Under the pieces are notes generated by a model, which saw nothing but the letters and a program-made list of their open reading frames with translations, did not search any database and was not told the origin of the DNA. A stretch of 64,000 bases of DNA from Planctomycetota bacterium (GTDB lineage Bacteria; Planctomycetota; Phycisphaerae; Phycisphaerales; Phycisphaeraceae). The position numbers were made by a program, and so were the translations under genes. The stretch covers positions 62,001 to 126,000 of the forward strand of contig JAJRXX010000062.1 in the NCBI GenBank assembly GCA_024276075.1. Direction: 5' to 3'. Numbering within the stretch: position 1 is the first letter of the stretch; each line of letters opens with the position of its first letter. This document shows positions 19,300 to 54,922 of this stretch, piece by piece.

Positions 19300-20340
19300 A
19301 TGCTGAAATTAGACGCAACGCTCATGGCCCCCACCGTTTCGCAGGTCATGTCCGTAACCGGATGGGGTCTGCCGCCTGTCGATTGGGGAAAACGGGCCAA
19401 TCAATCCGCTAAGAATACACTCGATAATTGCGAAGACGCCGAACTGTTCGCGCCCCAAGATTTGGCCAGCGAACCCATGGCCGGTGCCGTGCGGGCGCTG
19501 CTGTATCTCTGGACCGGCTGGCCCGGGGATTGCCAAATGCTCAGCGGCGCCGCCCCGGAAGATGAACGGCTGTATATCTCGGCGCTGGCATACCGGCACG
19601 AAGGCAAAGCTGAAGAAAGCAAGTCACAGTTCCAACAACTCACAGATCGTCGCCCACACGACGTCAAGCTGGCGAAGCTGGCAACAGAACTCATCAGCGA
19701 CAACGCGGAGCCTTCCCTCAAGCGCTTCCGAGACCTGATCGCTTTGGGTGAAGCGTGGGAGACGTTCGCGTTTACAGACCTTTTAGCTCAAGCGAAGGAG
19801 GGCAAGTTAAACCTCGCGGGTGAAGAGATAGCCCGTAAACTGCAATGGGAAGAATTCAACCTGTTGCTCCATAGCTGCTACCTCGCTGCCACAGGTGAGG
19901 ATATAGAAGTCAAGGAACAACAGGTTAAAGTCGACAAAACACCCGCTTGGCGTAAAAACCAGTCCTCGTCTTCGAGCAGGATGCGTGCCGATCGTTCACA
20001 GCGAACCGATTCGTCCCGCGCCGCCGCGTCGGCTACAAAACCATCCGACACGAAAGTGTCAAAATCCCAGCCTACCGAGATCAAGATCAAGTGCCCAAAG
20101 TGCAAACACGTTTCATCCGTGTCGACCTCTTCACGAGGACAGGCCATTAAGTGTGGCGGCTGCGGGGTGGGCATCCGCGTCGCCGGCGGAGACGACAACC
20201 CCACAAGTAACCACCCGGCAAACTCGATCAAGCTGGCTTGCCCAAAATGCAGAAACGTCGGCTCATACGCGGCATCTGCACGCGGGGGTCAAGTGGCGTG
20301 TAGCAAATGCCGGACGACGTTCTTGTTTGCCGCAGCATAA
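19300..20340 (+). CDS. Hypothetical protein with two C-terminal zinc ribbons
   Basis: 346 residues, unknown function. Residues 1-200 are helical and acidic, with a TPR-like middle (ISALAYRHEGKAEESKSQFQ). Residues 205-255 are a low-complexity Ser/Lys/Arg linker (RKNQSSSSSRMRADRSQRTD). Two related zinc ribbons follow: IKCPKCKHVSSVSTSSRGQA with a later KCGGC, and LACPKCRNVGSYAASARGGQ with a later CSKC. The ribbons are about 45 residues apart and look like an internal duplication. The N-terminal opening MLKLDATLMAPT has no known motif. The start codon is ATG with only weak GAGAT upstream. A role in nucleic-acid or protein binding is possible but unproven. Confidence 0.8.
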   Translation: MLKLDATLMAPTVSQVMSVTGWGLPPVDWGKRANQSAKNTLDNCEDAELFAPQDLASEPMAGAVRALLYLWTGWPGDCQMLSGAAPEDERLYISALAYRHEGKAEESKSQFQQLTDRRPHDVKLAKLATELISDNAEPSLKRFRDLIALGEAWETFAFTDLLAQAKEGKLNLAGEEIARKLQWEEFNLLLHSCYLAATGEDIEVKEQQVKVDKTPAWRKNQSSSSSRMRADRSQRTDSSRAAASATKPSDTKVSKSQPTEIKIKCPKCKHVSSVSTSSRGQAIKCGGCGVGIRVAGGDDNPTSNHPANSIKLACPKCRNVGSYAASARGGQVACSKCRTTFLFAAA

Positions 20341-20377
20341 CCCTCCATAACCATCAACTCACGTTAGAATACCCGCA

Positions 20378-20450
20378 GGCCCCGTAGCTCAGTGGTTAGA
20401 GCTGTCGACTCATAATCGATCGGTCGCGGGTTCGAATCCTGCCGGGGCCA
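20378..20450 (+). tRNA. tRNA with anticodon CAU, probably tRNA-Ile2
   Basis: A 73-nt cloverleaf folds fully: acceptor GGCCCCG/CGGGGCC, D-arm GCTCAGTGGTTAGAGC, anticodon stem GTCGA/TCGAT with loop CTCATAA, and T-arm GCGGGTTCGAATCCTGC, with discriminator A. CCA is not encoded. The anticodon CAU could mean Met, but the acceptor GGCCCC and the D-arm match the tRNA-Ile2 type, whose C34 is changed to lysidine by TilS to read AUA. The anticodon stem lacks the GGG/CCC pairs of initiator tRNA. Confidence 0.93.
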
Positions 20451-20497
20451 TTGGATGCTTTCGCACCTGATTACATTGCGTCGAAATCTGACCTGTG

Positions 20498-20601
20498 ATA
20501 CGCATTGCGTATCGTTCTAGCGCGTTGCAAAGGATGTAAGTTATTGTCTGTTTTGCCTTCGCGTTCGCAGATGACGCGCAAGTATTAATCTTGATTGGAA
20601 T
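20498..20601. repeat. R1 interspersed repeat, copy C (abuts a stop codon)
   Basis: 104 bp from ATACGCATTGCGTATCGTTC to ATTAATCTTGATTGGAAT. It lies between the tRNA and the sulfotransferase gene, whose TGA stop (20601-20603) overlaps its last base. Orientation relative to the gene is the same as in copies A and B. Confidence 0.87.
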
Positions 20602-22055
20602 CACAGGGATGTTTCTCTCAAACCGGCGTAGATGCCGCGTGCTTCTTTTATAAGAGATGGGGCAACGGCCCCAGTATCTACTTCCCGCATCCGCGCGGGA
20701 CGCACAGTGGCGGCAACCGACATGTAGGCGTCTCCGATCTTGCTTCCGATAGTCTCCGCCAGCCGACGTAGACCGGCCTCAGGGGCCTCGCATAGCGCCT
20801 CGTAACTCAGAAAGAACAAGTCCTCTTTTCTCGTCAGAAGGTGCCTGTATGTAGCGACCCAATACTCTAACCAGAAGGCTAGCGATTCGGCGTCTTGTGA
20901 TTGGCGCTTGTGAAACCATCCCTCAAAATCGATAGGACGTAGGTTCTTACCGAAGTCGTAATGGCCGATTGCCCGCATATACTCGCAGGCAAACGGGTCT
21001 TCCTGATGGATTTTCAGAAAGTTGCGGTGCTGATTCAGTAACGAAGCTGCGTGGTGAAGCGGTTCCCGAAACGGCACAACAATGACCGAATCAGGAAAGA
21101 GCCGCCGCAGCGTTGGTATACGCGCAATGTTGAGGTTGTTCTTAGAGACGTATCGCATGCCGTGGGTATCTTGACCGCTGCGCAATAGGATGATCTTGCG
21201 CATGTGACTGCGAAAAAAATCCGAAAATTCATCATCGTTTTCGTCTTGCCACGGGATAATGCAATCGTTCAGATAGTGTTTTCGCCAAAACGTTTTCCAC
21301 AGCACCTCCTCCAGAGCCTCAGGGCTATCAAAATCGATGAGCATCCCGTCACCGTGGGCACGTTCTCGTAAACTGCCAGCCTTTTGGAACATCGCGGAGA
21401 AACGGCTCCACAAACAGGGGATCAGAACGAACGGCATGTCACGGTAGCTGTGGGAAGCGAATCCATCGAGTTTTACGCAACACTCGAGCAGCAATGTGGT
21501 CCCCGCACGGGGAAGCGCGGTGATGAAAACGGGTCGGTCCGCTTTACACGCGGCTAACTGTCTGGCAAACAGACGATCCTCTATATCCGCAAGCGAAACC
21601 TGTGCCGTCGTATACGTCTTGAAGGCGACGTGGTGCAGACATCGGTCCAGAGTGGAATAACTCGTCTCTTGGGACGTCTTATTTTGAGGGGCAAAGAATA
21701 CGAAAACAGTCAGAACACTGCTCGTAACTAGAAACACAGGCGAGACGGTAACAGAGAACACAGCGTCAAGAGAGAGCCACCCAAACCAATCGCACACCCA
21801 CAACAACCCCGCCGGAATCAGCATCGCTGCCGCTGCGCCGGTGGTAAGCACGAGAAACAAACCCAACAACTGCTTTGCATCCCTTTGGAGTGCCGCCTCT
21901 TTGACTTCGTCGGTCAGCGTAGAATCACGAACCACACCAAACGAACGACGCGATATGGCGACAACCTCGCCGCTCTTCTCGACCACCCCGAACCGTTGTA
22001 TTAAAAAAACAAAACCGAAGACAAGAAAGGCGGCACCGATCCAGGGAATCATCAT
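20601..22055 (-). CDS. Membrane-anchored PAPS-dependent sulfotransferase
   Basis: 484 residues. Three hydrophobic segments (about residues 3-20, 62-85 and 97-118) precede a soluble catalytic domain. VFITALPRAGTTLLLECCVK holds the 5'-phosphosulfate-binding loop (PRAGTT), and SVIVVPFREPLHHAASLLNQ resembles the 3'-phosphate-binding region. It should transfer sulfate from PAPS to a carbohydrate or lipid acceptor at the membrane; the acceptor is unknown. The start overlaps the stop of the small membrane protein gene (ATGATGA), so translation is probably coupled. It is the third gene of a cassette reading 23678 to 20601. R1 copy C lies at its stop codon. Confidence 0.86.
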   Translation of the reverse strand: MMIPWIGAAFLVFGFVFLIQRFGVVEKSGEVVAISRRSFGVVRDSTLTDEVKEAALQRDAKQLLGLFLVLTTGAAAAMLIPAGLLWVCDWFGWLSLDAVFSVTVSPVFLVTSSVLTVFVFFAPQNKTSQETSYSTLDRCLHHVAFKTYTTAQVSLADIEDRLFARQLAACKADRPVFITALPRAGTTLLLECCVKLDGFASHSYRDMPFVLIPCLWSRFSAMFQKAGSLRERAHGDGMLIDFDSPEALEEVLWKTFWRKHYLNDCIIPWQDENDDEFSDFFRSHMRKIILLRSGQDTHGMRYVSKNNLNIARIPTLRRLFPDSVIVVPFREPLHHAASLLNQHRNFLKIHQEDPFACEYMRAIGHYDFGKNLRPIDFEGWFHKRQSQDAESLAFWLEYWVATYRHLLTRKEDLFFLSYEALCEAPEAGLRRLAETIGSKIGDAYMSVAATVRPARMREVDTGAVAPSLIKEARGIYAGLRETSL

Positions 22056-22285
22056 TTCCCTCCGTCTGGGCCATTATCCTTCGGCGTCTTCTTCCGTAGG
22101 AGCCGCTTGATCGGATACCAAATGAATCCGATCAAGGCGACAATGATACCTACGATGACGGCAAGAAATGCACCGATCGCGGACAACCCCGTTCCCGGCC
22201 CAATATACGCTATGGCAGATTGAGGCAGGAGACAGACTAAAATAATTGCCAATGCGGGAAGCGTCCCCCATGCTCGCGTTTTCAT
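22052..22285 (-). CDS. Small membrane protein with YIGPGTG motif
   Basis: 77 residues from ATG 22285, with GAAGG about 9 bases upstream; a longer start at 22351 is less likely. A signal-like segment ends at SAIA. YIGPGTGLSAIGAFLAVIVG follows, then a hydrophobic helix and a basic tail (WYPIKRLLRKKTPKD). No enzyme motif is visible. Its stop overlaps the sulfotransferase start, implying a fixed stoichiometric or structural partnership with that enzyme. The function is unknown. Confidence 0.75.
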   Translation of the reverse strand: MKTRAWGTLPALAIILVCLLPQSAIAYIGPGTGLSAIGAFLAVIVGIIVALIGFIWYPIKRLLRKKTPKDNGPDGGK

Positions 22286-22358
22286 CGTTTTAACCTTCGC
22301 TTGTTCGCGACAACCGAGTTTTATCCTCGTGGACTCAACGGATGATTCCATAATCCGT

Positions 22359-23678
22359 CTAATTCGTTGTTGTAAAAAGACGATTGTATATCAATGGCAG
22401 ACGCTCCACTTCGTCGACCAAACCGACAATTCCATTATCAACGTAGTTTACGTACTCCCACACCATCTCACCTCGGGGGTTTATCTCGAAAGCCCTCCCC
22501 TCCTGAGATTCCGTAATCAGTAGGTTGCCGTTTGGAAGCCACTGGTGCTTACCCATTATAGCGGTGTAGAACGGGACGGTAGGGTTGCCTTCGAAGTACA
22601 CGTCCAATTTCTTCTCTCGTGCGGACACAATCACAATCCTGCTCTGATGACCGTACTCCTTCGATGCGATTAAGTTATTGTCAAAGACGGAGAATCTGTT
22701 CCCATCAATAAAATCCGGATCATGCTGCCGGACGAACCAGCCCATGCAAAGCAACTTAATCTTTCGAGTATACCGATTGAAGACGAATACGGTATTGATA
22801 TTCCGAAGAGAGACCAGAACATCTCCCTTTCGAAAGAAGTCTTCCTCCATCGTGTCGGGAAACGGTTCGACGTCGTTCAAATGAAGCACATCGCCGTAGC
22901 TAGCCACTATCAGCGTGGACCAGTTATCAACACTACCTGTAAAGAGCAATCCATTCAGATCGTTTTCGATCAGGAGGTCAGCCACGGACCACTCATTAGC
23001 GATCCTGCCATCGGGCGTCACTTCTAAAAATGTGTCTTCATAGATTGGCGTCTTGCGGTTAGAGAAACGCGCATCGGGTTTTGTGTGGCATTTCTTACCG
23101 CTCACCCACAAGTTCCCTTTGTCATCACGGTGGACCGAATGGTGCGTTAGGTAGGGCAATCGCCACACGACCTCTCCGTGAGGGTTTATGCGGACAAGCC
23201 CCAGACGTTCAAAGTTAAATACCAAGTCGCCGTTTTCCATGAGCACGCGGCCATGGATATGTGTGCCCGGCCTTTCTTGAGGAACCCATCCTTTTGGTAG
23301 ATGCTTCGCATCGGGCCATATCTTGAACCAGTCGATTTGCCATTCGTGGAGCTTTTGGCCGTCCATGTCCAGAATTTCGGCCACAATCGTTTTGTCGCTC
23401 CCGATCTTGGTAATTAGGTTCAACCCCTCGTACGCATCCCCGGGCCTATGAATGGCTTTCCCATCCTTACCCTCCACGCGTATGTAATACCAGGGAAGCT
23501 CTTGCTTAACCGTTATCGCGATAAGTTTTTTGTATCCTTCAGCCGCGCTCGCGTAGACCTGGAACGGAAAGATATGGTACCTGCCAACCAAAACCCCGTA
23601 AGTGAAGACGAGGCATAACGTCGAGGCTACAAAAAAGAAAAACGCAAATCGGTCCCCCGTTAACTTATTTTTCTGCAT
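22359..23678 (-). CDS. Arylsulfotransferase (ASST)-family beta-propeller protein
   Basis: 439 residues. One N-terminal membrane anchor (FAFFFFVASTLCLVFTYGVL) is followed by a long soluble domain with repeated beta motifs: ILDMDGQKLHEWQIDW, NGDLVFNFERLGLVRINPHG, HQWLPNGNLLITESQEGRAF and RGEMVWEYVNYV. This is the pattern of ASST-family six-bladed propellers. Classical ASST moves sulfate between phenols without PAPS through an active-site His; I see candidate His residues (YLTHHSVHRDD, GTHIHGRV) but cannot assign them. It is the first gene of a cassette with a small membrane protein and a PAPS sulfotransferase. Confidence 0.8.
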   Translation of the reverse strand: MQKNKLTGDRFAFFFFVASTLCLVFTYGVLVGRYHIFPFQVYASAAEGYKKLIAITVKQELPWYYIRVEGKDGKAIHRPGDAYEGLNLITKIGSDKTIVAEILDMDGQKLHEWQIDWFKIWPDAKHLPKGWVPQERPGTHIHGRVLMENGDLVFNFERLGLVRINPHGEVVWRLPYLTHHSVHRDDKGNLWVSGKKCHTKPDARFSNRKTPIYEDTFLEVTPDGRIANEWSVADLLIENDLNGLLFTGSVDNWSTLIVASYGDVLHLNDVEPFPDTMEEDFFRKGDVLVSLRNINTVFVFNRYTRKIKLLCMGWFVRQHDPDFIDGNRFSVFDNNLIASKEYGHQSRIVIVSAREKKLDVYFEGNPTVPFYTAIMGKHQWLPNGNLLITESQEGRAFEINPRGEMVWEYVNYVDNGIVGLVDEVERLPLIYNRLFTTTN

Positions 23679-23705: not shown

Positions 23706-23711
23706 ATTATA
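23706..23711 (-). promoter_or_regulatory. Candidate -10 box of the sulfotransferase cassette
   Basis: On the minus strand a perfect TATAAT lies 28 bases upstream of the ATG at 23678, in an AT-rich stretch. No good TTGACA is found 16-18 bases further upstream, so it may be activator-dependent or a chance match. Confidence 0.35.
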
Positions 23712-23900
23712 CTACAAAATAAGTGGTTGTATATCGATCGAGACAGGATTTTTCTCTTACTAAATCAACTACTCACACGAGTCCTCCATGCACTTCATCA
23801 GATGAACATTGCCCGGGTCTGCCATCATCAGGTCAATGATAGCCGAACGCGCAGCGATGGAGGTATAGTGTGACCTTATGCGCCGCGATTGGCATTGAAT

Positions 23901-35755: not shown

Positions 35756-36979
35756 TTAGTCGATTGTTAACTCGTGTTGCTCCGCCTGGGCCGCCACTTT
35801 TGCGAGTAGTTGTCGTGCCCTGCTGTCACCTGGATTTCGGCGTAGCGCCTCGGCGTATGCATCCGCGGCTTCCGCCATGCGATCGCTTCGCTCTAACGTG
35901 ACCCCACGCAGCAAAACGGGAGTGGGGTTTTCCGGTGCTAGTTGCGCCGCCTTGTCGAGCATTTCCAGTGCCAACTCGACCTCACCCTGCTTCGACCAAA
36001 CCACACCGGCCAGCAGATACCCCTCATATTGGTTGGGGGCGAGCTTCTGGATACGGTTTGCCGCTAGCAAAGCACCTTTCGAGTCTTCCTGTGTCAATGC
36101 CAATTCACCGAGCTTGATCCATGTCTCCACGCTCAGGGGATTGGTTCGTGTGAGGCTGATGTAAATGTCTTTCGCCTGGCCGACCCGACCCGAAGCGAGG
36201 TAGCTATCCGCCAATGCGCGTTTAAGATCGGCTCGGTCTGCCTGGCCCGGTTGCTTTAGTAGCGACTCAAACCTGCGAGCAGCCTCCGACCCCTGGCCGG
36301 CCCCAAGCAGCGCAAGCGCCAATTCCTCTTGGATACGCAGGTCGTCGGAACGTATCAGCAACGCCTGACGGAAATAATCGACAGCGTGTCTGTGGTCGCC
36401 ACGCATGACGAACAGTTGACCGATTGCCATGCGGACACCCGCGTTTAGGTCAAAATAGGTCATCTTTTCGGTAAGGATCGCCATGGCTTCATCGACCCGA
36501 TCCAGCACGACGAGCATTTCGGTCATGGCCAAGAGATACGCAGCGTTGTCCGGCTGGAGTTCGTAAGCCTGCTTATAAAAATCGTAGGCGGCATCAAACC
36601 GCATCCACCGCTGCATCACAATACCTTGGTAGTAATAGGCGGGGGCGTGCTTCTCATCCATCTCAATGGCGAGCTTAAAACGGTGAAACGCGCGTTCGAG
36701 CTTGGCGCGTTCCATCGCTACGCGACCGGCGAGCGTGTATAGCCTTGCGTTCTTGGTGTCGATCTTGATGGCTTCGGTGAGTGTCTTTTCAGACTGATCG
36801 AGATCGCCTGCGTCAAACTGCTGCTGTGCCATCTGCAGCATCAGCGTCGAACGCATGGTTTTCCAGCGTGCGTCAGCGGCATTGACATGGTCTTTGTGAG
36901 TCGAGCATCCAGCCGCTAAACCGATGACGACGACAGCCGTAATGAGTTTGCTTGTTGCCCTGGTCTTCGTGAAATACAT
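35756..36979 (-). CDS. TPR lipoprotein of the secretin cluster
   Basis: 407 residues from ATG 36979 (GAGA upstream). MYFTKTRATSKLITAVVVIG and AAGC form a lipoprotein signal. The mature protein is a run of about ten tetratricopeptide repeats: AQQQFDAGDLDQSEKTLTEA, AGRVAMERAKLERAFHRFKL, YYYQGIVMQRWMRFDAAYDF and others. TPR lipoproteins of this kind (PilF/PilW type) support secretin or pilus assembly. It is encoded 64 bp after the secretin gene and probably cotranscribed. The long upstream extension of the frame is secretin sequence, not part of this protein. Confidence 0.85.
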   Translation of the reverse strand: MYFTKTRATSKLITAVVVIGLAAGCSTHKDHVNAADARWKTMRSTLMLQMAQQQFDAGDLDQSEKTLTEAIKIDTKNARLYTLAGRVAMERAKLERAFHRFKLAIEMDEKHAPAYYYQGIVMQRWMRFDAAYDFYKQAYELQPDNAAYLLAMTEMLVVLDRVDEAMAILTEKMTYFDLNAGVRMAIGQLFVMRGDHRHAVDYFRQALLIRSDDLRIQEELALALLGAGQGSEAARRFESLLKQPGQADRADLKRALADSYLASGRVGQAKDIYISLTRTNPLSVETWIKLGELALTQEDSKGALLAANRIQKLAPNQYEGYLLAGVVWSKQGEVELALEMLDKAAQLAPENPTPVLLRGVTLERSDRMAEAADAYAEALRRNPGDSRARQLLAKVAAQAEQHELTID

Positions 36980-37043
36980 GATCTCTTTTCCTTCCGATCC
37001 AACCGGTGATGCGGGCCCCCACGCATCCGGCTTCGCATAGCGA

Positions 37044-39770
37044 TTAGTCCTCCTGGTCCGGTGACAGCAGCAGCCACTCGACAACCGCATTGAAGGGGTC
37101 GGACTCTGGAACATCTTCTGATTCGGTCGTGATCAATTCATCTGCCTGGAACTGGTCCTCCACCGCGATCACCCCTGCGGATAGATCAGGGGCCGTCGCT
37201 TGCTGAGCGACCTCGTCGCGTACAAATCCAAAATCGGCTGCTGTGCGAGACAGCGAATCCTCAACACTGTCGTTTGCTTGAAAAGCAGAGACGTCGGCCG
37301 TGGTATCGACATCCATTCCCGGATCGATCGCGGGTGTAAAGGCCGCACTATCATCCCACTGGGGCACCTCCACCGTCTGAGCCTGCAGTGTGTCTGGCGT
37401 AGTGACGGTCGACGTGGCAACAGTCGGCGCGGTAACGGTCGGCGTAGCAACCACAGGCTGATTCGTCATCAGCATGGGTGCGTCATCCGTGATGCTGGGC
37501 ACCTCGACGGAAGCGGACGGCACCTGTGCCTTGGGCGTCACCGGAATAATCGAAGCGACATCGGCTTTCGGCGTCTCCCTTTTCTTCGACGTCAGACTCT
37601 TTTTGAGCCAAGATTGAATCTGTGATTTAGCTTCGGCCTGTGGCTTAACACTGGTACTGGGTTGAGGTTCGATCTTGGCTTGGGGCTCAGGCATGACTTC
37701 GGTTTCAAATTGCGTGTCATCGGTAGGTGCGAAGTCGTCCCAAGTGGAGTTGTCCTGGGCAGGAATCTCCATATCAAAAGCGGGCTCCGATTGTGCCTCG
37801 AAGCTGTCTTCGAATACGGGGTCAGGCTGCGTCGACAACCCCGAGTCAAAATTCTGGCTGTCCATATCCTGAATCTGGTAGGACGAATTGTCCTGCCAGG
37901 CGGGCTGATCAAAACCGGTATCGACAGCGGGCGTCACCATGCTCGGGATGGTGGTGTTGAAGCTGGAGCTATCCATGGGCACATCGCTGCTCTCGGGCCA
38001 AGAATAGCCCTGCGAGCCGGCGCCATTGCCAACCGCGCCGCGGAGAATGTCATCAACGGTGCCGTTAAGGATGCTGAAGTTAACCGGATCGTAGACCTGT
38101 TTACCGGTAATCTTCTGCTTAAATTCAATGGCCTCGTAGCTTTTGGGTTCGAGGGTCAGCGCCATATTGACAGCCCAAAGAGCTTTTTCGCTGTTCCCTT
38201 CGCTGTAATACCTCTGTGCGTCGCGGAGGTAAGCGGCAGTCATCTTCGTGCGAGACCAAGGCAGTAATCCCTCGCGTGCACCCAACCGCGCCATCTCGAT
38301 GCTCTCCTGAGTACTCTCGCCAAGTGCGTACAGGCTTTCATCCTTTATGATCGTCGGCGTGATCAGGAAAATGACTTCGTTGCGAACAACCTTGTCATCC
38401 TGACTCTTGAACATAACACCCAGAAGAGGGATATCTCCCAACAAAGGCACCTGCTTGCGAGTAACGGTCGTGTCTTCCTTGAACAGACCGCCCAGGACGA
38501 CCGTTTGGCCGCTCCGAACCACAACGTTAGTGGTGATCTCCTGATTCGTTGTTTCGGGTACCACAAAGCTCCCAACCGTACGGGTCGTATCGCCGGCGGA
38601 GATCGAAGGCTTTAGCTCGAGACGGATGAACCCGTCTTCGCTGACAAACGGGCGTAGCGTTAATTGGGTACCAATTTCGAGGAACTCGACCGTCTGCGTC
38701 GTCGACGTTTGCGTCGCGGTGCTGCTGAGGTAGCCGAGCTTCTCACCAACAAGCAGGTCGGCCCGCTGGCGGTTAAGCACTAGCAACTTCGGGTTTGCCA
38801 GAACGGTCGTGTCCGTAACCGCGTCGAGCGCTCGGATAAACGCGCTGACCGAATGTGTGACGATACCGATCTTCGCCCCGGATTGTCCGGCAGAGGTATT
38901 ACCCACACTGGTCTGAAAGGCCCCCCTGCCTTTGGGCAACGACGTGGTCCCGGAAATCACATCATTGACGACGCCCAGCGGGTCGGAAAAATTGCTCAGT
39001 GCGAAGTCGGCCAACACCGATAGGTCAACACCGAAGGCGTTGTCCTCTGTGAGGCGGGCTTGCAAAATAGTCGACTCGACGAGGACCTGCTTGGGTCGCC
39101 TATCAAGGTCTTTAATCACTTCAAGGATCTCTTCGATATTCTCCTGGAAGTCACGGATGACTATCGTATCGGAGTGGGCAAAACTATTAGCACCGCCATC
39201 AGACAAGCTTGGCTGGAAACCGGCGCCAACGTCACCGCTGATCGAGAGCGACCCCGCCTCTGAAAGCAAGGGCGTCGCAAAAGCAGAGGCGTCGGCGGCT
39301 GTGATGTAGTTCAGACGGACGATCCGGGTGACGGGCTTGCGCTGCGCGTCCTCGATCGCCTCTAGTTCGCTACCCGTATAGACGAATATCAGATTACCTT
39401 TTTCCTGATAGCCGAAACCGTTGGTGTGGAGGATCGCGTCAAGCGCTTCATAAAAGTCCACGCCGTAAAGGTCCGCTGAGATCATGCCCGCGACGTTTCG
39501 GCTGGCGATGATGTTGCGTTGCGATTGCAGGCTCAGGAGTTGGAGCACCTTGGCGACTTCCAAATCTTTTACGTGCAGGTCTACCTGACCGAATGAACCG
39601 ACCTTTACCGCGTGCTTCCCTGCGGACTTGTCGTCGGCATCGTCATCAAAGATGCTGCCCTGTTCGCCCGCGGGAGGAGCCCCGTTGACCTCAAGACCCA
39701 TCCCGACACCCACCCATGCGACAGTGCAAAATAGCACCGCTCTGATCATTATGCGTTTACGATCGCCCAT
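37044..39770 (-). CDS. Type II/III-type secretin with long acidic C-terminal tail
   Basis: 908 residues from ATG 39770 (GAGGAG upstream). A signal segment (IMIRAVLFCTVAWVGVGMGL) is followed by an N0/STN-type domain (VDLHVKDLEVAKVLQLLSLQ) and an N1-like repeat with LNYITAADASAFATPLLSEA. The secretin core runs roughly from residue 230 to 500: TVLANPKLLVLNRQRADLLV, VRSGQTVVLGGLFKEDTTVT and VPLLGDIPLLGVMFK. Unusually, another ~400 residues follow. A TPR-like stretch (AAYLRDAQRYYSEGNSEKAL) is followed by an Asp/Glu/Gln/Pro/Thr-rich tail with repeats such as VATPTVTAPTVATSTVTTPD. It forms the outer-membrane pore of a T2SS or T4P. Confidence 0.92.
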   Translation of the reverse strand: MGDRKRIMIRAVLFCTVAWVGVGMGLEVNGAPPAGEQGSIFDDDADDKSAGKHAVKVGSFGQVDLHVKDLEVAKVLQLLSLQSQRNIIASRNVAGMISADLYGVDFYEALDAILHTNGFGYQEKGNLIFVYTGSELEAIEDAQRKPVTRIVRLNYITAADASAFATPLLSEAGSLSISGDVGAGFQPSLSDGGANSFAHSDTIVIRDFQENIEEILEVIKDLDRRPKQVLVESTILQARLTEDNAFGVDLSVLADFALSNFSDPLGVVNDVISGTTSLPKGRGAFQTSVGNTSAGQSGAKIGIVTHSVSAFIRALDAVTDTTVLANPKLLVLNRQRADLLVGEKLGYLSSTATQTSTTQTVEFLEIGTQLTLRPFVSEDGFIRLELKPSISAGDTTRTVGSFVVPETTNQEITTNVVVRSGQTVVLGGLFKEDTTVTRKQVPLLGDIPLLGVMFKSQDDKVVRNEVIFLITPTIIKDESLYALGESTQESIEMARLGAREGLLPWSRTKMTAAYLRDAQRYYSEGNSEKALWAVNMALTLEPKSYEAIEFKQKITGKQVYDPVNFSILNGTVDDILRGAVGNGAGSQGYSWPESSDVPMDSSSFNTTIPSMVTPAVDTGFDQPAWQDNSSYQIQDMDSQNFDSGLSTQPDPVFEDSFEAQSEPAFDMEIPAQDNSTWDDFAPTDDTQFETEVMPEPQAKIEPQPSTSVKPQAEAKSQIQSWLKKSLTSKKRETPKADVASIIPVTPKAQVPSASVEVPSITDDAPMLMTNQPVVATPTVTAPTVATSTVTTPDTLQAQTVEVPQWDDSAAFTPAIDPGMDVDTTADVSAFQANDSVEDSLSRTAADFGFVRDEVAQQATAPDLSAGVIAVEDQFQADELITTESEDVPESDPFNAVVEWLLLSPDQED

Positions 39771-40176
39771 CCTACATGCTCCTCGGCCTCGCTTTTTCAT
39801 TCCCTGTCCTCATACGCCAATACTCAATCAATACGGTTCTAATCGGCTTATTCTCTCTGCTGCCCTGTCTTGGTATTGACCGCATATCACCACTCGGCTA
39901 CGCCGATGCCCGTTGGCAAATCGGCACTGGTTACACGGCGGCATCATGGGCATGGTTATGCCCTGTGGCCTAAGGCCTGCAGGTCTCATCGGCTTATTGG
40001 GAACCCGACTTTTCCGGGGGTTGCGATCGGGCAAGCGAGATAACAAAGAAGTAGCTTTTAAGCTGTAACGAAGAATCCCTTTTGTGCGGTTATGAGGCCT
40101 GACTATTATCGGGACCGATAGCGTGCCGATAATCGGACGCTATATGCGAAGAGACATGATCTGATAATGCTATTTT
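39771..40176. other. Leader region of the secretin gene with several hairpins
   Basis: On the minus strand upstream of the secretin, four compact hairpins occur in a row. They are AACCC-loop-GGGTT near 39999-40023, CCTG/CAGG enclosing GGCC-TTA-GGCC near 39963-39985, GGGCAT-AACC-ATGCCC near 39948-39964, and AGCTT/AAGCT-type pairing near 40053-40064. Together they suggest a structured 5' UTR or small RNA. I do not recognise a known riboswitch consensus. No ORF is supported. Confidence 0.4.
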
Positions 40177-40304
40177 TTTAGAGCAACTGGCGTAATTAAT
40201 CTCCATAACCAGGTGGCACGGCTTGCTTGCAAGCCGTGAAATACAGATGTCCATTACACCTACGATCCAATCCAGATGGAAAATATTGACGCCCGTTGTT
40301 TTAG
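40177..40304. repeat. R3 MITE-like element, copy B (overlaps a stop codon)
   Basis: About 128 bp with the ends TTTTAGAGCAACTGGCGT / ACGCCCGTTGTTTTAGAA. The core hairpin CACGGCTTGC-TT-GCAAGCCGTG is a perfect 10-bp palindrome. The TAA stop of the GspH-like pseudopilin gene (40301-40303, minus strand) lies inside its terminal repeat. It is inverted relative to copy A. Confidence 0.85.
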
Positions 40305-40810
40305 AATGGGGCGATCGTGACCAATCCGGTAAACGGAGCGACCGCGATGCGGTATCGGATGTTGCCACCTAGCACATCGACCGACCCGCCATCCGTGGGT
40401 GCACCGAGCGGATCAAATTCCAGGAATGCGACGCCGTTAAAAACCGGGTTCTGCATCGTGACGCCTGTGAATCGCGGGTCCGTGTTGAAATCAACGATGA
40501 AGTTTGCGGCACCAAGTCCGCCCGATTTCCAGCTCGCGTTGAGGGTCGTCCCGGCTTGATCTGTGACACGATACCGGTTGTTTGCGGGTTCGAAGATAAC
40601 ACGACGAACCGCCTGGCTGGCAATCGCGTCGTTCTGAGCGATGAGGATATCGGAGATGATCATCCTGCCAGCCGCCTGGACACCTAGTGTGCCGGGGTTG
40701 AGCAAAGACGGGACGACGATCGCGCCCGCGAGCCCAATAATCACGATCACAACCAATACTTCAACTAGTGTGAATCCTCGCGGTGCTAGAGATGTCGAAC
40801 CTCGCCGCAT
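40301..40810 (-). CDS. GspH-type minor pseudopilin
   Basis: 169 residues from ATG 40810 (GGGGAG upstream). RGFTLVEVLVVIVIIGLAGA is a canonical prepilin cleavage site (after Gly) and hydrophobic helix with Glu5. The C-terminal domain has a GspH-like order of beta segments (RRVIFEPANNRYRVTD, VAFLEFDPLG). It should be a minor pseudopilin at the tip of a pseudopilus or a T4P-like fibre. An in-frame ATG at 40867 is possible but overlaps the upstream gene. The stop codon lies within R3 copy B, so the natural C-terminus may have been altered. Confidence 0.85.
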   Translation of the reverse strand: MRRGSTSLAPRGFTLVEVLVVIVIIGLAGAIVVPSLLNPGTLGVQAAGRMIISDILIAQNDAIASQAVRRVIFEPANNRYRVTDQAGTTLNASWKSGGLGAANFIVDFNTDPRFTGVTMQNPVFNGVAFLEFDPLGAPTDGGSVDVLGGNIRYRIAVAPFTGLVTIAPF

Positions 40811-40844
40811 CTGTGGCTTCTCCCCTGCCGTTATCGGCTGGCCG

Positions 40845-41117
40845 TTATTTGTCGCGCGTGCCACCATCGATCCGTACCCGTGCCCGACCCGACTCGAACA
40901 AATTCGATAGCTGCTCGACTTCCCGTGAAACTCTGCGTAGCTCAGCGATCATCTGCTCACGCTGTTGACCGGCGTTTGAAATACCCTGTGCGTAAGCAGG
41001 CGTGGCCATGCTCAAAGATTCCTCGGTGACGACACCAGACCACGTGGTCCAGAGTTGAAGCGCCAAGAGGATCGCCAAAACCGTTAGAACCGAATTGAGG
41101 TATCGCAGGGGATTCAT
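40845..41117 (-). CDS. Small membrane/coiled-coil protein of the pseudopilin cluster
   Basis: 90 residues; AAGGAG with an 8-base spacing supports the ATG. A membrane segment (LTVLAILLALQLWTTWSGVV) and a TPAYAQ stretch that could be a signal-peptidase site are followed by a charged amphipathic helix (REQMIAELRRVSREVEQLSN). I cannot assign a family. It sits 34 bp upstream of the GspH-type gene, so it is probably part of the same secretion unit. Confidence 0.7.
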   Translation of the reverse strand: MNPLRYLNSVLTVLAILLALQLWTTWSGVVTEESLSMATPAYAQGISNAGQQREQMIAELRRVSREVEQLSNLFESGRARVRIDGGTRDK

Positions 41118-41420
41118 ACGCCAGCTCCTTCGACTTGATTGCGAGTTTTATTGACACAGACCGCCGTGTGGCTCTTGGGTCGTTACAGGACCACGACTGC
41201 CCGGCTCTATCTACTTATTAATACGCATTCAGGTAAATTTGTACGTATTGCCATTCAAGAAGAGGTCCACTCCCTCACAGTCGCAGCTCGTTACGGCCAC
41301 GCACGAATTAATCTGAATGCGTATAAGTCTTATCGGCAAGATCAGGGTACCGCTTCGGGAATGCACAAAAGTCGGTTCCTTCACGCCTACCCCCTTGAGG
41401 AGAGACTTTTAAAACAGCTT
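41118..41420. other. Gap containing an R2 element
   Basis: 303 bp with no gene. The middle is the R2 repeat (41221-41324). The remaining sequence shows no ORF of interest and no terminator. Confidence 0.6.
41221..41324. repeat. R2 MITE-like element with perfect 12-bp inverted ends
   Basis: Exactly 104 bp, the same length as two R1 copies, bounded by ATACGCATTCAG and CTGAATGCGTAT, which are perfect inverted repeats. The first ~30 bases read from either end are similar to R1, so R1 and R2 look like relatives. There is no internal gene. A degenerate relative lies at 1744-1835, upstream of prfA. Confidence 0.85.
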
Positions 41421-41960
41421 CTAGTAATCGGTGTAAGATGCCCCGTGCACGTCGGAGCCCGGCAGATTGGCCGCAATGGTGCCCGTCGAGGGCTGATAGA
41501 CCCATCCCTCGGGCCCCTCGGCGATGACAGGACCAAAGTCGTAAGAGTCCATAAACCGGATATCGTTGTTGCTATTGATCAGGTTCATGGGCATCCGTTC
41601 CATGTAGGGCCCAAACTTGTATTCGTCGCTGGGGATCCTGGAGGTGTCGCCCTGCTCATTGGTATACATGGTCATCTGTGCGAGGAAGGCGTCGTAGGTC
41701 GGTGCCGTCAGGGTATCGCCCCGAGGGTAGCCCGGCGCGACGCCCGCGTGCTGTGCTCGATAGACCATGATCTGTGTGCGCAGATCATGGAGCGTCTCAC
41801 GCAATGCGGACTCTTGCTCGATGTTCGCTGCGCTCGACAGCCGCGGCGCTACCATGACCGCCAAGAGGGTCAGGATAATCGCCACGATCAATACCTCCGC
41901 CATGACGGATGACCGACGAAAAAATGTAGATCGCTGCTTGTTACGAGGGCCCGTAGACAT
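41421..41960 (-). CDS. Pseudopilin-like protein with non-canonical cleavage site
   Basis: 179 residues. The N-terminal helix VMAEVLIVAIILTLLAVMVA with following PRLSSA has the layout of a prepilin (Glu at position 5 of the mature protein, long hydrophobic helix), but the residues before it are RRSSVMAE, so the usual cleavage Gly is replaced by Ser. The rest has GspG-like features (ETLHDLRTQIMVYRAQHAGV and a C-terminal GWVYQPSTGTIAANLPG). It follows the GspG gene with a terminator between them. It may be a pseudopilin that is poorly cleaved, or an uncleaved membrane relative. Confidence 0.75.
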   Translation of the reverse strand: MSTGPRNKQRSTFFRRSSVMAEVLIVAIILTLLAVMVAPRLSSAANIEQESALRETLHDLRTQIMVYRAQHAGVAPGYPRGDTLTAPTYDAFLAQMTMYTNEQGDTSRIPSDEYKFGPYMERMPMNLINSNNDIRFMDSYDFGPVIAEGPEGWVYQPSTGTIAANLPGSDVHGASYTDY

Positions 41961-42035
41961 TTTTATATCTCAACGTGGCGTTGTTTTAAGGGTGTGATTT
42001 TCATCACGCTCATTGCAATTTTCTTATCGCCCTAA

Positions 42036-42072
42036 ACAAAAACTCACCCCGACCGTTAAGCCGGGGTGAGTG
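42036..42072 (-). terminator. Intrinsic terminator of the GspG gene
   Basis: Read on the minus strand, CTCACCCCG-10 nt-CGGGGTGAG forms a 9-bp stem followed by TTTTTGTTT. It lies about 20 bp after the GspG stop codon, so it separates GspG transcription from the next pseudopilin gene. Confidence 0.85.
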
Positions 42073-42090
42073 AGTAATAACACGAATGAA

Positions 42091-42597
42091 TTAGTAGGTG
42101 TCTACGTCCGCGGCGTCGACTTCCACACCGACGACGGGATTAGCGGCGGCCAGGTTAGCCAGGATTTCACCCGTAACGGCGTTGTAGGTCCAGCCCACAC
42201 CCGCAGCGGTAGCACCGGCAGCCGCAACGGTCGCGCTGGCTTCAAATGGGTTGAGCGGGGGCTTCTGTAGGTAAGGCCCAAAGGTATTCGGACCTGCAAC
42301 CACGATCCCGCCTGCGGCACTGGTGATGTTGATTAGGTTGTCAAACGTACGACCAGCGGCGTCGGTGTTGCCGTCCATTTGTGCCAGCGTGGGATAAGTA
42401 CCGTTGTGCTGAATCTGGTACAGCTCAAGCTGGCTTCGGATCGCCTGTAACTGTGAGTTGAGGTTGCTCGCCCGGGCGGCTTCGCTAGCATTCGTGAACT
42501 GAGGTATCACGATAGCTGCGAGGATGCCCAAGATCACGACCACGATCAAAATTTCGACGAGCGTGAAGCCCTGTTCTCTGCGACTGCGTAGTGACAT
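42091..42597 (-). CDS. GspG-type major pseudopilin
   Basis: 168 residues from ATG 42597 (GGGAG upstream). REQGFTLVEILIVVVILGIL followed by AAIVIPQFTNASEAARASNL is a full prepilin leader, cleavage Gly, Glu5 and GspG/PilE-like helix. The C-terminal globular domain is short (about 130 residues) and has GVGWTYNAVTGEILANLA, similar to the end of the pseudopilin at 41421-41960, so the two are paralogues. It would form the shaft of a pseudopilus. It is the most upstream gene of the pseudopilin set, with its own terminator. Confidence 0.9.
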   Translation of the reverse strand: MSLRSRREQGFTLVEILIVVVILGILAAIVIPQFTNASEAARASNLNSQLQAIRSQLELYQIQHNGTYPTLAQMDGNTDAAGRTFDNLINITSAAGGIVVAGPNTFGPYLQKPPLNPFEASATVAAAGATAAGVGWTYNAVTGEILANLAAANPVVGVEVDAADVDTY

Positions 42598-42919
42598 AGC
42601 TGAATTCTCCCTAAAAAGTCCGGTCCAACCCATTTCCATGCAAACCCACACGGGCCTGCTTTATCTTCACCTCCACTTTATTGGGAGGACGCTGATGCAC
42701 TGGCGCTGCTAGATTTCAATCGTCCGCCAGGGTGTAAGACTTGATCCCTCTGCGTGTCATCTTGATCACGCGCGGGTTCTCTTGCCCACACCACCGTCAA
42801 AAAACGAACGACACGAATAAAAAACGATACCTGCAAGTAAATGACAAGCCCCGGGAACAGCTAAAAACAGCATTTCACCAAACGTGACCGCTACAACCAA
42901 CACAACACGCACAAGGTGA

Positions 42920-45128: not shown

Positions 45129-46058
45129 ATGATGGCCAAGATGCCAACGGATCAACACGCAAGCGTATGTGGTTTTAGCTTCGGCAGGAATCTCACGAAG
45201 CTCAATTACCCCGTGGAAGCTGCGGTCGGCAGTGTTTTGCCACTGTGTGATCGGTTCGTCTTTGCGGTAGGAGCCAGCGACGACGACACCCGGAAACGAG
45301 TCGCCGCCATCAGCCCGAAGATGGAGATAATCGACACCGTTTGGCCCGATGTGCAGGTCGACGGCGAGGTCCTGGCGATCGAAGCCAACAAAGCCATGAC
45401 CGCCGCCCAAGACACCGGCTGCACCTGGGGCCTATACATCCAGGCTGACGAGGTGATCCATGAGGACGACCTGTCACTGATCCGAGCGGCGATGGACCAC
45501 TGGCAACCCCACCCACACGTCAAGGCGCTAATGTTTAGGTACCTGCACTTTGTACTCGACTACCAAACGATCGATCCGTGGATGTACCACAAAGCCTGCC
45601 GGATCGTCCGACTCGACGAGTCGTGCCGCATCTTCGGCGACGCCTGCGGCCCAGGGCTGCGCGACTACACGGGGTCGATCAACGACGGGTACCTCGACAA
45701 ACGACACCTGGGCGGGCACGTGCAATGGGCGTGTGACCCGTCGGCTCGCTGGCGAGGGCGTCAAGCACGTATCTTCCACTACGGCTGGGTCAAGACGCGC
45801 CAGGAACTCGATGACAAATTTCAGATGGTCGAAAAACTGTGGTGGGGTACGCTCGACCATGGCGAACGCGAACGCCGAAAGAGCAACAAATTTGGACGCT
45901 TCGCTGATCGGTACCCATACCTGAAGAACTTCAACGGCCAACACCCCACGCTAATGCAAACGCACACCGCGTCACACGCACCCTACCTGGCTCGACGCAA
46001 CCGCTGGCTCAATCCTCGCTTTTACGCCGAGGTCATTCGGCACGGGTTTCACGGATAA
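45129..46058 (+). CDS. Glycosyltransferase (GT2-like)
   Basis: 309 residues. The start ASVCGFSFGRNLTKLNYPVE and FAVGASDDDTRKRVAAISPK resemble the nucleotide-sugar-binding half of GT-A enzymes. WGLYIQADEVIHEDDLSLIR offers a DxD-like acidic site. The second half has MYHKACRIVRLDESCRIFGD and HYGWVKTRQELDDKF. Its family is close to glycan GT2-type proteins found in polysaccharide clusters; the substrate is unknown. It is convergent with the WaaP-like kinase gene 8 bp away and begins the glycan cluster. Confidence 0.82.
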   Translation: MMAKMPTDQHASVCGFSFGRNLTKLNYPVEAAVGSVLPLCDRFVFAVGASDDDTRKRVAAISPKMEIIDTVWPDVQVDGEVLAIEANKAMTAAQDTGCTWGLYIQADEVIHEDDLSLIRAAMDHWQPHPHVKALMFRYLHFVLDYQTIDPWMYHKACRIVRLDESCRIFGDACGPGLRDYTGSINDGYLDKRHLGGHVQWACDPSARWRGRQARIFHYGWVKTRQELDDKFQMVEKLWWGTLDHGERERRKSNKFGRFADRYPYLKNFNGQHPTLMQTHTASHAPYLARRNRWLNPRFYAEVIRHGFHG

Positions 46059-46066
46059 TACCTAGG

Positions 46067-46918
46067 CTAGCCGTCGAGCAAGCTCACGACCTGTTTCGCG
46101 ACCGAGCGCAGCCGATTCGCAGTATCCCGGGCGATCGACGGGTCTGCATCGAGTAGCTCCTTGAGGCAAATCAACCCTTCGCGGGTAGTCACGCCCCCGG
46201 GTTCCTGCGTGGCTTGGAGAAAATTAGTAAGCATACGACAGACGTGTGCCTCGCCTGGGCGCCGGCGGCGCAAACCGGCGGGATCGATCATGCACGGCTG
46301 CGTCTCCCCTTGCTCGCACGGGCTGTCGATAATCAGATTACTGGGCTTGAGGTCGCGGTTAATGATGCCCGCGGTTGTCATGGCACCGATCTGCCTGCCG
46401 ATCATCCTCGCTACTATTTGCCGTGCTCGGCAGGTGGGTACCTCCAGGCGCGAGTCGGACGAGTCCACCAGCCAGTGGTAGAGCGATTCGCCTTCGACGT
46501 ATGGCAATATCAGTGTCTGAACGCAATTAGACAGACCGCTTTCGTGCACCAACGCCAACGGCATACTGACGCGCACACCCGCATGCGCCAGTCGCCGGGT
46601 GCCGCACCACTCCTGCCAAGCGGGTGTTCGGCGAAACAGGTGATACAACCGTGTCTTCCATGCGGGGGCACGGTATCGCTTGACCACCCAGCGACGATCC
46701 GCGTGTGACGAGACCCAAACGCGCGAACGGTCGTCGTCCTTGAAGATCGTCTGAACAGCGTTTCGACTCTGGATCAGGCTTGCGATTGCTTCGCTAATCC
46801 GCTCCTGCGAGCCGGCCAGACCCGTATCACGAGCCACGTCGAGATCGACCCAGCACCGCGACCAGCCAAGGTCTAGGCGTGCAGCGAAATAACTTGCACC
46901 GTTACGGATCGAACCCAC
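46067..46918 (-). CDS. LPS-kinase-like (WaaP/Kdo kinase family) protein
   Basis: About 283 residues from GTG 46918 (GGAGG upstream); GTG 46921 is equally possible. RRWVVKRYRAPAWKTRLYHL gives the ATP-anchoring Lys. HWLVDSSDS and MTTAGIINRDLKPSNLIIDS form the catalytic loop, in which HRD is NRD. MIDPAGLRRRRPGE replaces the metal-binding DFG. The overall pattern fits lipopolysaccharide core kinases, which phosphorylate sugars such as Kdo or heptose. It is the last gene of a tight four-gene operon with a GT39-like protein, a methyltransferase-glycosyltransferase fusion and a methyltransferase. Confidence 0.8.
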   Translation of the reverse strand: MGSIRNGASYFAARLDLGWSRCWVDLDVARDTGLAGSQERISEAIASLIQSRNAVQTIFKDDDRSRVWVSSHADRRWVVKRYRAPAWKTRLYHLFRRTPAWQEWCGTRRLAHAGVRVSMPLALVHESGLSNCVQTLILPYVEGESLYHWLVDSSDSRLEVPTCRARQIVARMIGRQIGAMTTAGIINRDLKPSNLIIDSPCEQGETQPCMIDPAGLRRRRPGEAHVCRMLTNFLQATQEPGGVTTREGLICLKELLDADPSIARDTANRLRSVAKQVVSLLDG

Positions 46919-46937
46919 CACCAAAGCCTCCAGGTAT

Positions 46938-47771
46938 TTAGACGATTTGCCCGTGTGGTTGCGAGTCGTGATCGGTACGCCGCAGCACGATAAAAGCAAA
47001 CATCGAAGCGTCGGGCCCAAACCGGTTCAACGCACTCTCGACGGTTTTCCAAAAGCCAAAACTCCACCCGGGCTGAAGGCTCCGCATCGACACGCCACCG
47101 GACAACAGATACCGCAGCGGCATCAGCGGTTTGATCGTCTCGATGCGCCACTGAGGAAATCGCTGCTCGAATTTTTCACGATCACGCTCCAAGATGATCC
47201 AAGGCAGCGCGCCGTTTGCACTCGATAGCGGCCCCGAAGACGAGAAGCCCCAGTCCACCGCGTCGGGCTCAAACGGCTCGTGGTGCAGGCGCGTGTAGAC
47301 CTGCTTGGACCACGCAGTGACCCAGGGCTCGACCATGGCGATCACCCCGCCGGGCGCCACGCACCGACCCGCTGCAGCGAAAAACTGCCCCGCATCGGGG
47401 ATGTGGTGCAACACCTCGACCATCACGACACCGCGTAGCGCACCAGCGGCAAACGGGAGGGCCTGACCATCCGCCACCATATGTACGCCCGGGCACGCCA
47501 GCACGTCTGATGTGACCAAGCCGTGTATGAACTCGTCCATAAAACCCGCGCCCGAGCCCAGCTCCAGGATGGGCCGATTACCCCCAGGCACCGCCGAGGC
47601 GATCAGCGCGTACCACTCGCGGTATATTTTTTTGAGGAACGGCTTCTCGCGGATGATACGGCGCCGCAGCGCCGTGGTCCACGGGTCGTCGATATCCAGC
47701 CCACGGGTCAAGGGGTGCGCCAGCAATCGTTTCGTGGCTAAGAGGGGCGAAGGCATCAGTAATCGGCGCAT
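46938..47771 (-). CDS. SAM-dependent methyltransferase
   Basis: 277 residues of the class I fold. RPILELGSGAGFMDEFIHGL is motif I, ADGQALPFAAGALRGVVMVE and VLHHIPDAGQFFAAAGRCVA are motifs II-III of the Methyltransf_11 type. The substrate is not evident; in this cluster it is likely a glycan or lipid intermediate. The ATG directly follows the TGA of the upstream fusion gene, so translation is coupled. Confidence 0.88.
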   Translation of the reverse strand: MRRLLMPSPLLATKRLLAHPLTRGLDIDDPWTTALRRRIIREKPFLKKIYREWYALIASAVPGGNRPILELGSGAGFMDEFIHGLVTSDVLACPGVHMVADGQALPFAAGALRGVVMVEVLHHIPDAGQFFAAAGRCVAPGGVIAMVEPWVTAWSKQVYTRLHHEPFEPDAVDWGFSSSGPLSSANGALPWIILERDREKFEQRFPQWRIETIKPLMPLRYLLSGGVSMRSLQPGWSFGFWKTVESALNRFGPDASMFAFIVLRRTDHDSQPHGQIV

Positions 47772-49277: not shown

Positions 49278-49284
49278 GGTGTAT

Positions 49285-50661: not shown

Positions 50662-50722
50662 CGTCGGGACTCCTTGGCGGCTACCTAGAAGATATCATTC
50701 AAACACTTAGAATATAGAGGAC

Positions 50723-51571
50723 ATGACGAATACGATCCAAAAGCTGTTCTTGCCATTCCACCGTGCGGCTCACTGGCCCGATGGGCCAACCTACCAACAT
50801 GAGCAGCGCCGATGGATGCTCACTCGTGTGTTGTCGGAGGTGCCGCTCGACGGCGTGCAAACGGCCGTGGAACTGGGCTGCGGCGACGGATGGGTCTGCG
50901 GAGAGTTGGCACACCAACTCGGGTGCCGCGTCGTGGGTTTCGACATTAATCTCAATCGGATTGCCCCCGCTGCCAATGCAATAACTGTGCTGTTGGTCGG
51001 TGGGGATGCGTCCGCCCCCCCTATCGCTCACGGCAGCGTTGATCTGGTATTCACATTTGCGGTGCTCGAACACCTGCCCGACCGGTTGGAGGTCCTACTG
51101 AAGCTCAAAACACTACTCAAGCCCGGTGGAAAAATGATCCATATCGTTCCCACGTCCACGATGAAAATCCTGCAGTGGGTCGGACATGGCCCGGATTTGG
51201 TTCGTAAACAAGTCCGTGGGGTGACGCGCTTTCTCGCCGACCAACGTCATCACCGTTCCCAGAAGTACATACAGGGCCACGAGACGAATAACCCTCGCCG
51301 CGCGTCAAGGCGACGGGGCCTGCGAAAGTTAATACCACGTGTGCATGGTGAATATGAAAATAATTTCCGTGAGTTTGTCGAAAACTCGCACCAGCACTGG
51401 ACGGAATTGTACGGTCGGGCTGGCCTGCGGGTGGTGCGTGCGGTGCCGCTGGGGTTGTTCTCCCCGTATTTTTTCGGGTTTTCGGGACCGGCCAAGTGGG
51501 CGGCGAGAGTTGGGTTGGCGTCGCTCTACGGCTATGTTGTCGAAATGGCAGATGAGTGTAATCGGGGATGA
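50723..51571 (+). CDS. SAM-dependent methyltransferase
   Basis: 282 residues. VQTAVELGCGDGWVCGELAH is motif I; a second motif, SVDLVFTFAVLEHLPDRLEV with LLKLKTLLKPGGKMIHIVPT, completes the class I fold. The C-terminal half is basic, with HHRSQKYIQGHETNNPRRAS and RFLADQ, and lacks a recognised substrate domain. It is the first gene of a plus-strand set (methyltransferase, small ORF, GT4) facing the minus-strand operon. Confidence 0.88.
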   Translation: MTNTIQKLFLPFHRAAHWPDGPTYQHEQRRWMLTRVLSEVPLDGVQTAVELGCGDGWVCGELAHQLGCRVVGFDINLNRIAPAANAITVLLVGGDASAPPIAHGSVDLVFTFAVLEHLPDRLEVLLKLKTLLKPGGKMIHIVPTSTMKILQWVGHGPDLVRKQVRGVTRFLADQRHHRSQKYIQGHETNNPRRASRRRGLRKLIPRVHGEYENNFREFVENSHQHWTELYGRAGLRVVRAVPLGLFSPYFFGFSGPAKWAARVGLASLYGYVVEMADECNRG

Positions 51572-51578
51572 GGTCGGT

Positions 51579-51779: not shown

Positions 51780-51782
51780 CCA

Positions 51783-52925: not shown

Positions 52926-52973
52926 TGCGAACGGGATTTAAAACCAGCTTGATTCGATCAACCTCGTTTTGGT

Positions 52974-54815: not shown

Positions 54816-54922
54816 GGTGGGCCGATTATGACGACCGGCAGACAGTGTGCAATTTATTGAACTACCCCTCACTGCGCGCGTGCGACGCACCGCATCCGAC
54901 GGTCAACACGGATGACGATCGA

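Follow-up and report, generated by a model that had tools for sequence, protein, structure and literature searches.

A block of three genes in a 64,000-nt stretch of contig JAJRXX010000062.1 of a Planctomycetota bacterium (the window, whose numbering is used below unless a locus label is given) probably represents a widespread membrane-bound variant of two-step sulfation. The genes span positions 20601-23678, all on the minus strand, and are transcribed in the order arylsulfate sulfotransferase (ASST)-type beta-propeller, tiny membrane protein with a YIGPGTG motif, and sulfotransferase of the type that depends on 3'-phosphoadenosine 5'-phosphosulfate (PAPS). An earlier note on this DNA had placed three genes there in this order with the last two overlapping, as is indeed the case (the shared bases are ATGA, and the propeller stop lies 73 nt from the start of the tiny gene), without giving the strand. 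We read this cassette, with a probability of about 0.6, as a self-contained inner-membrane sulfation module, in which a carrier would be charged with sulfate inside and discharged outside by the propeller.

The set of genes recurs in distant genomes. When plasmids were searched by tblastn with the sulfotransferase as query, eight records came back, seven of them with a propeller close by, and an alignment of the plasmid sulfotransferases served for a single scan of species genomes, from which the best 80 loci were retained. Together with the window and seven plasmids this gives 88 loci, all picked via the sulfotransferase and with profiles built from these data. Within 4 kb of the sulfotransferase, the propeller is found in 80/88 loci and the tiny gene in 84/88; several of the loci without the full set are contig ends, and the eight genomes with no propeller nearby all carry one elsewhere (E-values of 3e-133 to 1e-43, six of them at 1e-90 or better). 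At least six phyla carry the cassette: Planctomycetota, Pseudomonadota, Cyanobacteriota, Thermodesulfobacteriota, Bacteroidota and Gemmatimonadota. Because the 88 loci had been chosen via the sulfotransferase, the test was also run in reverse, from the tiny protein. In Planctomycetota (392 genomes), all seven clear stand-alone tiny genes (the one in the window included) adjoin both enzymes. In 289 genomes from the class to which a Tateyamaria locus belongs (Alphaproteobacteria), where flanks of 1.5 kb were considered, the eight further strong stand-alone tiny genes all have the sulfotransferase beside them and six have the propeller. Pooling both searches, the sulfotransferase adjoins 15/15 stand-alone tiny genes and the propeller 13/15. 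Co-occurrence of the three families elsewhere, which had been set beforehand as a test, is thus observed across phyla and from both directions.

If the membrane domain at the N terminus of the sulfotransferase is counted, the cassette has four parts. The window sulfotransferase is a fusion protein. Its part from about residue 131 onwards aligns with sulfotransferases that stand alone, and next to these, on the upstream side, a membrane protein of ~125 amino acids is encoded that belongs to the same family as window residues 1-121. Membrane domain and sulfotransferase form one protein in 50 of the 88 loci and are encoded separately in about 36; the domain therefore belongs functionally with the enzyme. 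No Pfam family matches the domain above the cut-off; its charge pattern puts the long loop inside.

The set is conserved while its order and neighbours vary. The tiny gene, the fused sulfotransferase and the propeller follow one another in 30 loci; the propeller, the tiny gene and separate membrane-domain and sulfotransferase genes do so in 16, and the propeller, the tiny gene and the fused sulfotransferase in 14, besides other orders. The four parts have diverged together: correlations between their pairwise distances are 0.72-0.93, and none of 999 permutations gave a value as high. No conserved neighbour genes, acceptor-making ones included, were found around the cassette beyond one Rhodobacterales group of ~15 loci (e.g. 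L005:196-12211), where it stands with UbiA-HAD, AsmA-like, TMEM260-like (DUF2723) and DUF4185 genes, and in L005 also with GtrA and GT61 glycosyltransferase genes. This context suggests an envelope glycan as acceptor in that group. The 12 genomes searched with the tiny-protein profile have one tiny gene each, whereas some of them and some other cassette genomes (G728 and G729 among them) have two to four full-length propellers. Several propellers may stand close together, as at L014:5191-11706 and L045:8618-13318 (three within a few kb each) and at L055:3701-6747, the tiny gene being single in all three genomes. Propellers remote from the cassette have mixed neighbours, some of them glycan-related.

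The propeller is of the ASST type by family match, model and structure match alike. It matches PF14269 (E=1.1e-32) and PF05935 (E=2.9e-13), and its AlphaFold2 (AF2) model (predicted local distance difference test score, pLDDT, 91.8; predicted template modelling score 0.85) comes closest in the PDB to Cpz4 (9kf4, E 2e-14; also 9kf6) and then to the E. coli ASST (4p04, E 8e-12). Designed beta-trefoils that came up in PDB searches in the course of the analysis were disregarded as compositional matches. There is one N-terminal transmembrane helix (residues 6-34), and the body of the protein is predicted to be extracytoplasmic, in the periplasm. A review lists His252, His356, Asn358, Arg374, His436 and Thr501 as the site residues of the E. 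coli enzyme (EcAST; PMC13426309), and their counterparts in the propeller are given in Table 1. The register of the predicted nucleophile, His319, was read from the ends of the aligned stretch (306-377 against 433-513), which place profile position 309 on residue 436 of 3elq; the profile match of the propeller to the E. coli enzyme is weak (E 0.007). Thr occupies the candidate Thr501 position in 59/87 propellers, and a profile alignment also pairs the QHD motif of the propeller with that of Cpz4. Judged by these residues, the ASST active site is intact and the propeller is predicted to be an active enzyme; the active-site residues of Table 1, whose presence had likewise been set beforehand as a test, are found in 85-87 of the 87 sequences. 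The plasmid-type 'aryl-sulfate sulfotransferases' of Pantoea and Alloyangia, which have no HxN motif, proved unsuitable for mapping the active site.

The sulfotransferase matches PF13469 (E=1.8e-12). The folds matched by its AF2 model (pLDDT 91.8) are those of mycobacterial Stf1/Stf9 and of tyrosylprotein sulfotransferases (TPST), with identities of only 12-16% in structure alignments, and its sequence profile best matches protein-tyrosine sulfotransferases. Its PAPS-binding loops are intact (Table 1), which makes it a putatively active enzyme. Two candidate catalytic bases between the 5' and 3' binding elements, His234 and Glu250, are both present in 88/88 sequences, the TPST Glu having no clear alignment. 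The PAPS synthesis genes for which the earlier note had advised a search are present in the genome, namely ATP sulfurylase (E 1e-94) and adenosine 5'-phosphosulfate (APS) kinase (E 4e-71 and 1e-34).

The tiny protein, for which no Pfam family scores above the cut-off, consists of a signal peptide ending in AIA, the YIGPGTG motif, one transmembrane helix and a WYPIKRLLRKK tail. In nearly all tiny sequences the tyrosine directly follows a signal-peptidase-like AxA, although a few planctomycete ones have no evident signal peptide. Tyr27, Gly29, Gly31 and Pro58 are invariant across 49 aligned rows; the distance from the tyrosine to the inner proline (xP motif), which is followed by the basic tail, is fixed in 84/85 tiny proteins, and the first 28 residues after AxA have zero net charge in 84/85. 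An uncharged stretch and then a basic tail point to a single helix with the tyrosine outside and the C-terminal tail inside. On plasmid pSC52_6 (L009), the tiny gene (1113-1346) lies ~19 kb from the sulfotransferase and propeller (19998-23080) and adjoins another sulfotransferase-like gene and an acyl carrier protein.

The YxGPGxG domain is not restricted to the cassette, as it also forms the N terminus of large (~720 amino acids) type I phosphodiesterases (PF01663) in many Planctomycetota. It is matched in 69/392 Planctomycetota genomes, mostly by such fusions (e.g. L107:1-1770 on the minus strand, L103, L110 and L120). In three loci the phosphodiesterase gene is immediately preceded, on the same strand, by a propeller gene with weak likeness to ASST (L100:1847-3181 and L115:1787-3148, minus; L124:3-1370, plus). 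The enzyme itself differs from that of the cassette, belonging to the alkaline phosphatase superfamily and being fused to the domain. These loci seem to form a parallel arrangement with a phosphodiesterase replacing the sulfotransferase, and the YxGPGxG domain thus looks like a membrane device that serves two different kinds of group-transfer enzyme.

In the relay that we propose, the sulfotransferase, held at the inner membrane face by its three-helix domain, would move sulfate from PAPS to a membrane-soluble acceptor, most likely a phenolic or lipid-like one. This sulfated acceptor would cross or span the membrane at a binding or passage site that the tiny YxGPGxG helix and the three-helix domain would form together. 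The propeller, anchored on the outer side, would take the sulfate onto His319 and hand it on to an acceptor outside the cytoplasm, for example a glycan or an envelope lipid. One charging unit could feed several propellers, and a single tiny gene with two to four propellers per genome is what would be expected from such a division of labour. The logic would be that of the Cpz8-pyrone-Cpz4 relay of caprazamycin, rebuilt around the membrane. A membrane-bound relay had been suggested in the earlier note; the co-occurrence, the intact active sites and the PAPS supply favour it, whereas the use of the product of one enzyme as donor by the other, the carrier, the acceptor and the crossing of the membrane by sulfate are what we infer.

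Several observations weigh against this proposal. Of the 63 propellers in which the N-terminal helix was detected, only 39 show a clear positive-inside pattern, shared ancestry contributes to the correlated divergence of the parts, and a small one-helix membrane protein fits many roles. Moreover, no carrier-making gene travels with the cassette among its conserved neighbours, which would require the carrier to be a common cell component. The likeliest and most economical reading of the cassette, well motivated and unproven, is a relay whose carrier is a common membrane molecule.

The tiny protein could itself be the carrier, its invariant tyrosine being sulfated by the TPST-like sulfotransferase and the propeller taking the sulfate from the sulfotyrosine. 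The best profile matches of the sulfotransferase, the position of this tyrosine right after the predicted cleavage site, the inclusion of aryl sulfates among ASST donors (PMC13426309) and the bacterial precedent of RaxST/RaxX, where the tyrosine of a small protein from an adjacent gene is sulfated (PMC6637879), would all fit. Once translocated, however, the tyrosine would face away from cytosolic PAPS and could be charged only once, and the absence of net charge around it in 84/85 sequences contrasts with the acidic surroundings of many known sulfotyrosines. The same tyrosine is also kept in those versions of the domain that are joined to a phosphodiesterase rather than accompanying a sulfotransferase, which speaks against its being merely a sulfate carrier, and we find this explanation quite improbable. 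It also seems unlikely, if somewhat less so, that there is no relay and that both enzymes independently sulfate the same envelope molecule or pathway, inside with PAPS and outside with environmental aryl sulfates. Each active site is complete by itself, and some loci do sit among glycosyltransferase and other glycan genes, but such independence leaves unexplained why the pair, the tiny protein and the membrane domain stay together in unrelated neighbourhoods, and why the propellers multiply beside a single tiny gene.

Many beta-propellers are binding proteins, including several among the structure matches, and the propeller might accordingly be a non-catalytic partner, for instance a subunit that binds or docks the sulfated product. 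A binding scaffold would have no need of the ASST catalytic set, which is kept in at least 85 of the 87 sequences (His319 in all 87), making such a role very unlikely. As for adjacency by chance or local shuffling, the absence of the cassette from sampled close relatives and its lower G+C do point to recent placement in this genome, but the same set turns up in at least six phyla, whether the search starts from the sulfotransferase or independently from the tiny protein, which refutes this explanation and leaves it next to no probability.

A relay from a PAPS sulfotransferase to an ASST is already known, since in caprazamycin biosynthesis (Streptomyces sp. MK730-62F2), as far as the two papers describe it, a pyrone receives sulfate from the PAPS sulfotransferase Cpz8, and the resulting phenolic sulfate then serves Cpz4 as donor (PMC4257720, PMC4924298). 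The statement in the earlier note, which knew of no described pathway of this composition, was therefore too strong, all the more so as Cpz4 is the best structural match of the propeller. Both systems encode a PAPS sulfotransferase and an ASST-type propeller together, and the HxN, Arg and QHD motifs align between Cpz4 and the cassette propeller. They differ in that the caprazamycin carrier is a triketide pyrone from a type III polyketide synthase (PKS), whereas the cassette comes without a PKS or antibiotic cluster (no type III PKS was found among its conserved neighbours, and no PKS was seen in the annotated plasmid loci), and in that both cassette enzymes are membrane-anchored and accompanied by a constant tiny YxGPGxG protein and a three-helix domain. 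The cassette also occurs in phyla that are Gram-negative, and its neighbours are unrelated to those of the caprazamycin genes. The primary paper on the two-step sulfation of caprazamycin is reportedly Tang et al. 2013.

The other likenesses are more partial. AssT of E. coli CFT073 (PF05935) shares the propeller fold, the active-site residues (His436 and its surroundings) and a predicted location outside the cytosol, but its sequence similarity is weak, and the cassette has a PAPS sulfotransferase next door instead of recognised assT-specific partners. With TPST and Stf1/Stf9 (PF13469-type) the cassette sulfotransferase has in common the fold, the 5'-phosphosulfate- and 3'-phosphate-binding elements and the catalytic Lys, and it differs in having a membrane domain of its own, fused or as a neighbouring gene. 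Xanthomonas RaxST/RaxX likewise combines a bacterial PAPS sulfotransferase with an adjacent gene for a very small protein containing a conserved tyrosine; RaxX, however, is a secreted peptide exported by RaxAB, whereas the tiny protein keeps its membrane helix, travels with an ASST propeller and has no conserved exporter linked to it. Literature searches for the YxGPGxG motif or for a sulfate relay beyond caprazamycin found none. The membrane-bound version with a tiny protein thus appears undescribed in the papers searched, both enzyme types being already known.

The cassette seems to have been acquired by transfer, given its low G+C (54% and 49% in two 2-kb blocks, among the lowest of a window mostly at 54-63%) and its near-absence from sampled close relatives: only 3/60 relatives searched gave a weak propeller match, and no stand-alone tiny-protein match was found among sampled genomes of the family, order or class of the source (a 2.88 Mb assembly in 77 contigs). 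The sulfotransferase tree places the window with Okeania cyanobacteria, Desulfocapsa and two planctomycetes (a group of seven rows, support 100/99), a grouping across phyla that again suggests transfer. These features suggest a mobile module that has spread horizontally. A tRNA-Met (CAT) gene lies at 20378-20450 (plus strand), ~150 bases past the cassette end; no duplicated tRNA end, the mark of an integrated element, was found in the window, a repeat search found nothing, and PADLOC reported no defence family. Some 21 kb from the cassette, at 45129-54890, stands a series of genes resembling those for glycosyltransferases, methyltransferases and asparagine synthases, recognised from translations only and a possible source of a glycan acceptor. 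The translations also indicate secretin-like and pilin-like genes at 35756-42651, a cluster of the type II secretion or type IV pilus type.

Table 1. Features of the sulfation cassette in window coordinates
Feature	Position	Strand	Remarks
ASST-type propeller gene	22359-23678	-	439 amino acids
Tiny YIGPGTG membrane protein gene	22052-22285	-	77 amino acids
Sulfotransferase gene	20601-22055	-	484 amino acids
ATGA shared by tiny-gene stop and sulfotransferase start	22052-22055	-	
Promoter-like site 5' of propeller	23706-23733	-	weak; site number not above shuffles
His179-His180, candidate counterpart of EcAST His252	23139-23144	-	85/87 and 87/87; match inferred from order, without direct alignment
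His266-x-Asn268 (EcAST His356/Asn358)	22875-22883	-	87/87 propellers; aligned to HIN of Cpz4
Arg292 (EcAST Arg374)	22803-22805	-	85/87 propellers; aligned to Arg of Cpz4 'SGRN'
His319 codon, predicted sulfo-histidine nucleophile (EcAST His436)	22722-22724	-	His in 87/87 propellers
YIGPGTG motif, predicted mature N terminus (periplasmic face)	22187-22207	-	
N-terminal membrane domain of sulfotransferase, residues 1-121	21693-22055	-	AF2 helices 2-21, 49-90, 106-121
PAPS-dependent-type sulfotransferase domain, residues 131-484	20601-21665	-	PF13469; predicted cytosolic
5'-phosphosulfate loop R183-A-G-T-T187	21495-21509	-	Arg183, Gly185 in 88/88; both Thr in 87/88
Lys305, counterpart of TPST Lys in K-D-P-F motif	21141-21143	-	88/88; aligned to TPST
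3'-phosphate-binding element R330...S338	21042-21068	-	each 88/88

PAPS is cytosolic, and a route carrying sulfate groups across the membrane would therefore explain how bacteria could sulfate molecules on the outside. Gram-negatives of several phyla might even possess a general membrane sulfo-carrier system, a tentative and rather doubtful extension of the relay, in which one charging unit, made up of the sulfotransferase, the three-helix domain and the YxGPGxG helix, loads a common membrane molecule with sulfate that one or more outside propellers spend on different envelope acceptors, with the YxGPGxG helix shared with a parallel phosphodiesterase system; its logic would be comparable to that of the polyprenyl-phosphate sugar carriers. 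For most bacterial ASSTs it is not known which donors and acceptors they use in nature (PMC13426309). Constant company of a propeller and a PAPS sulfotransferase would show where the donor comes from and open the question to genetics.

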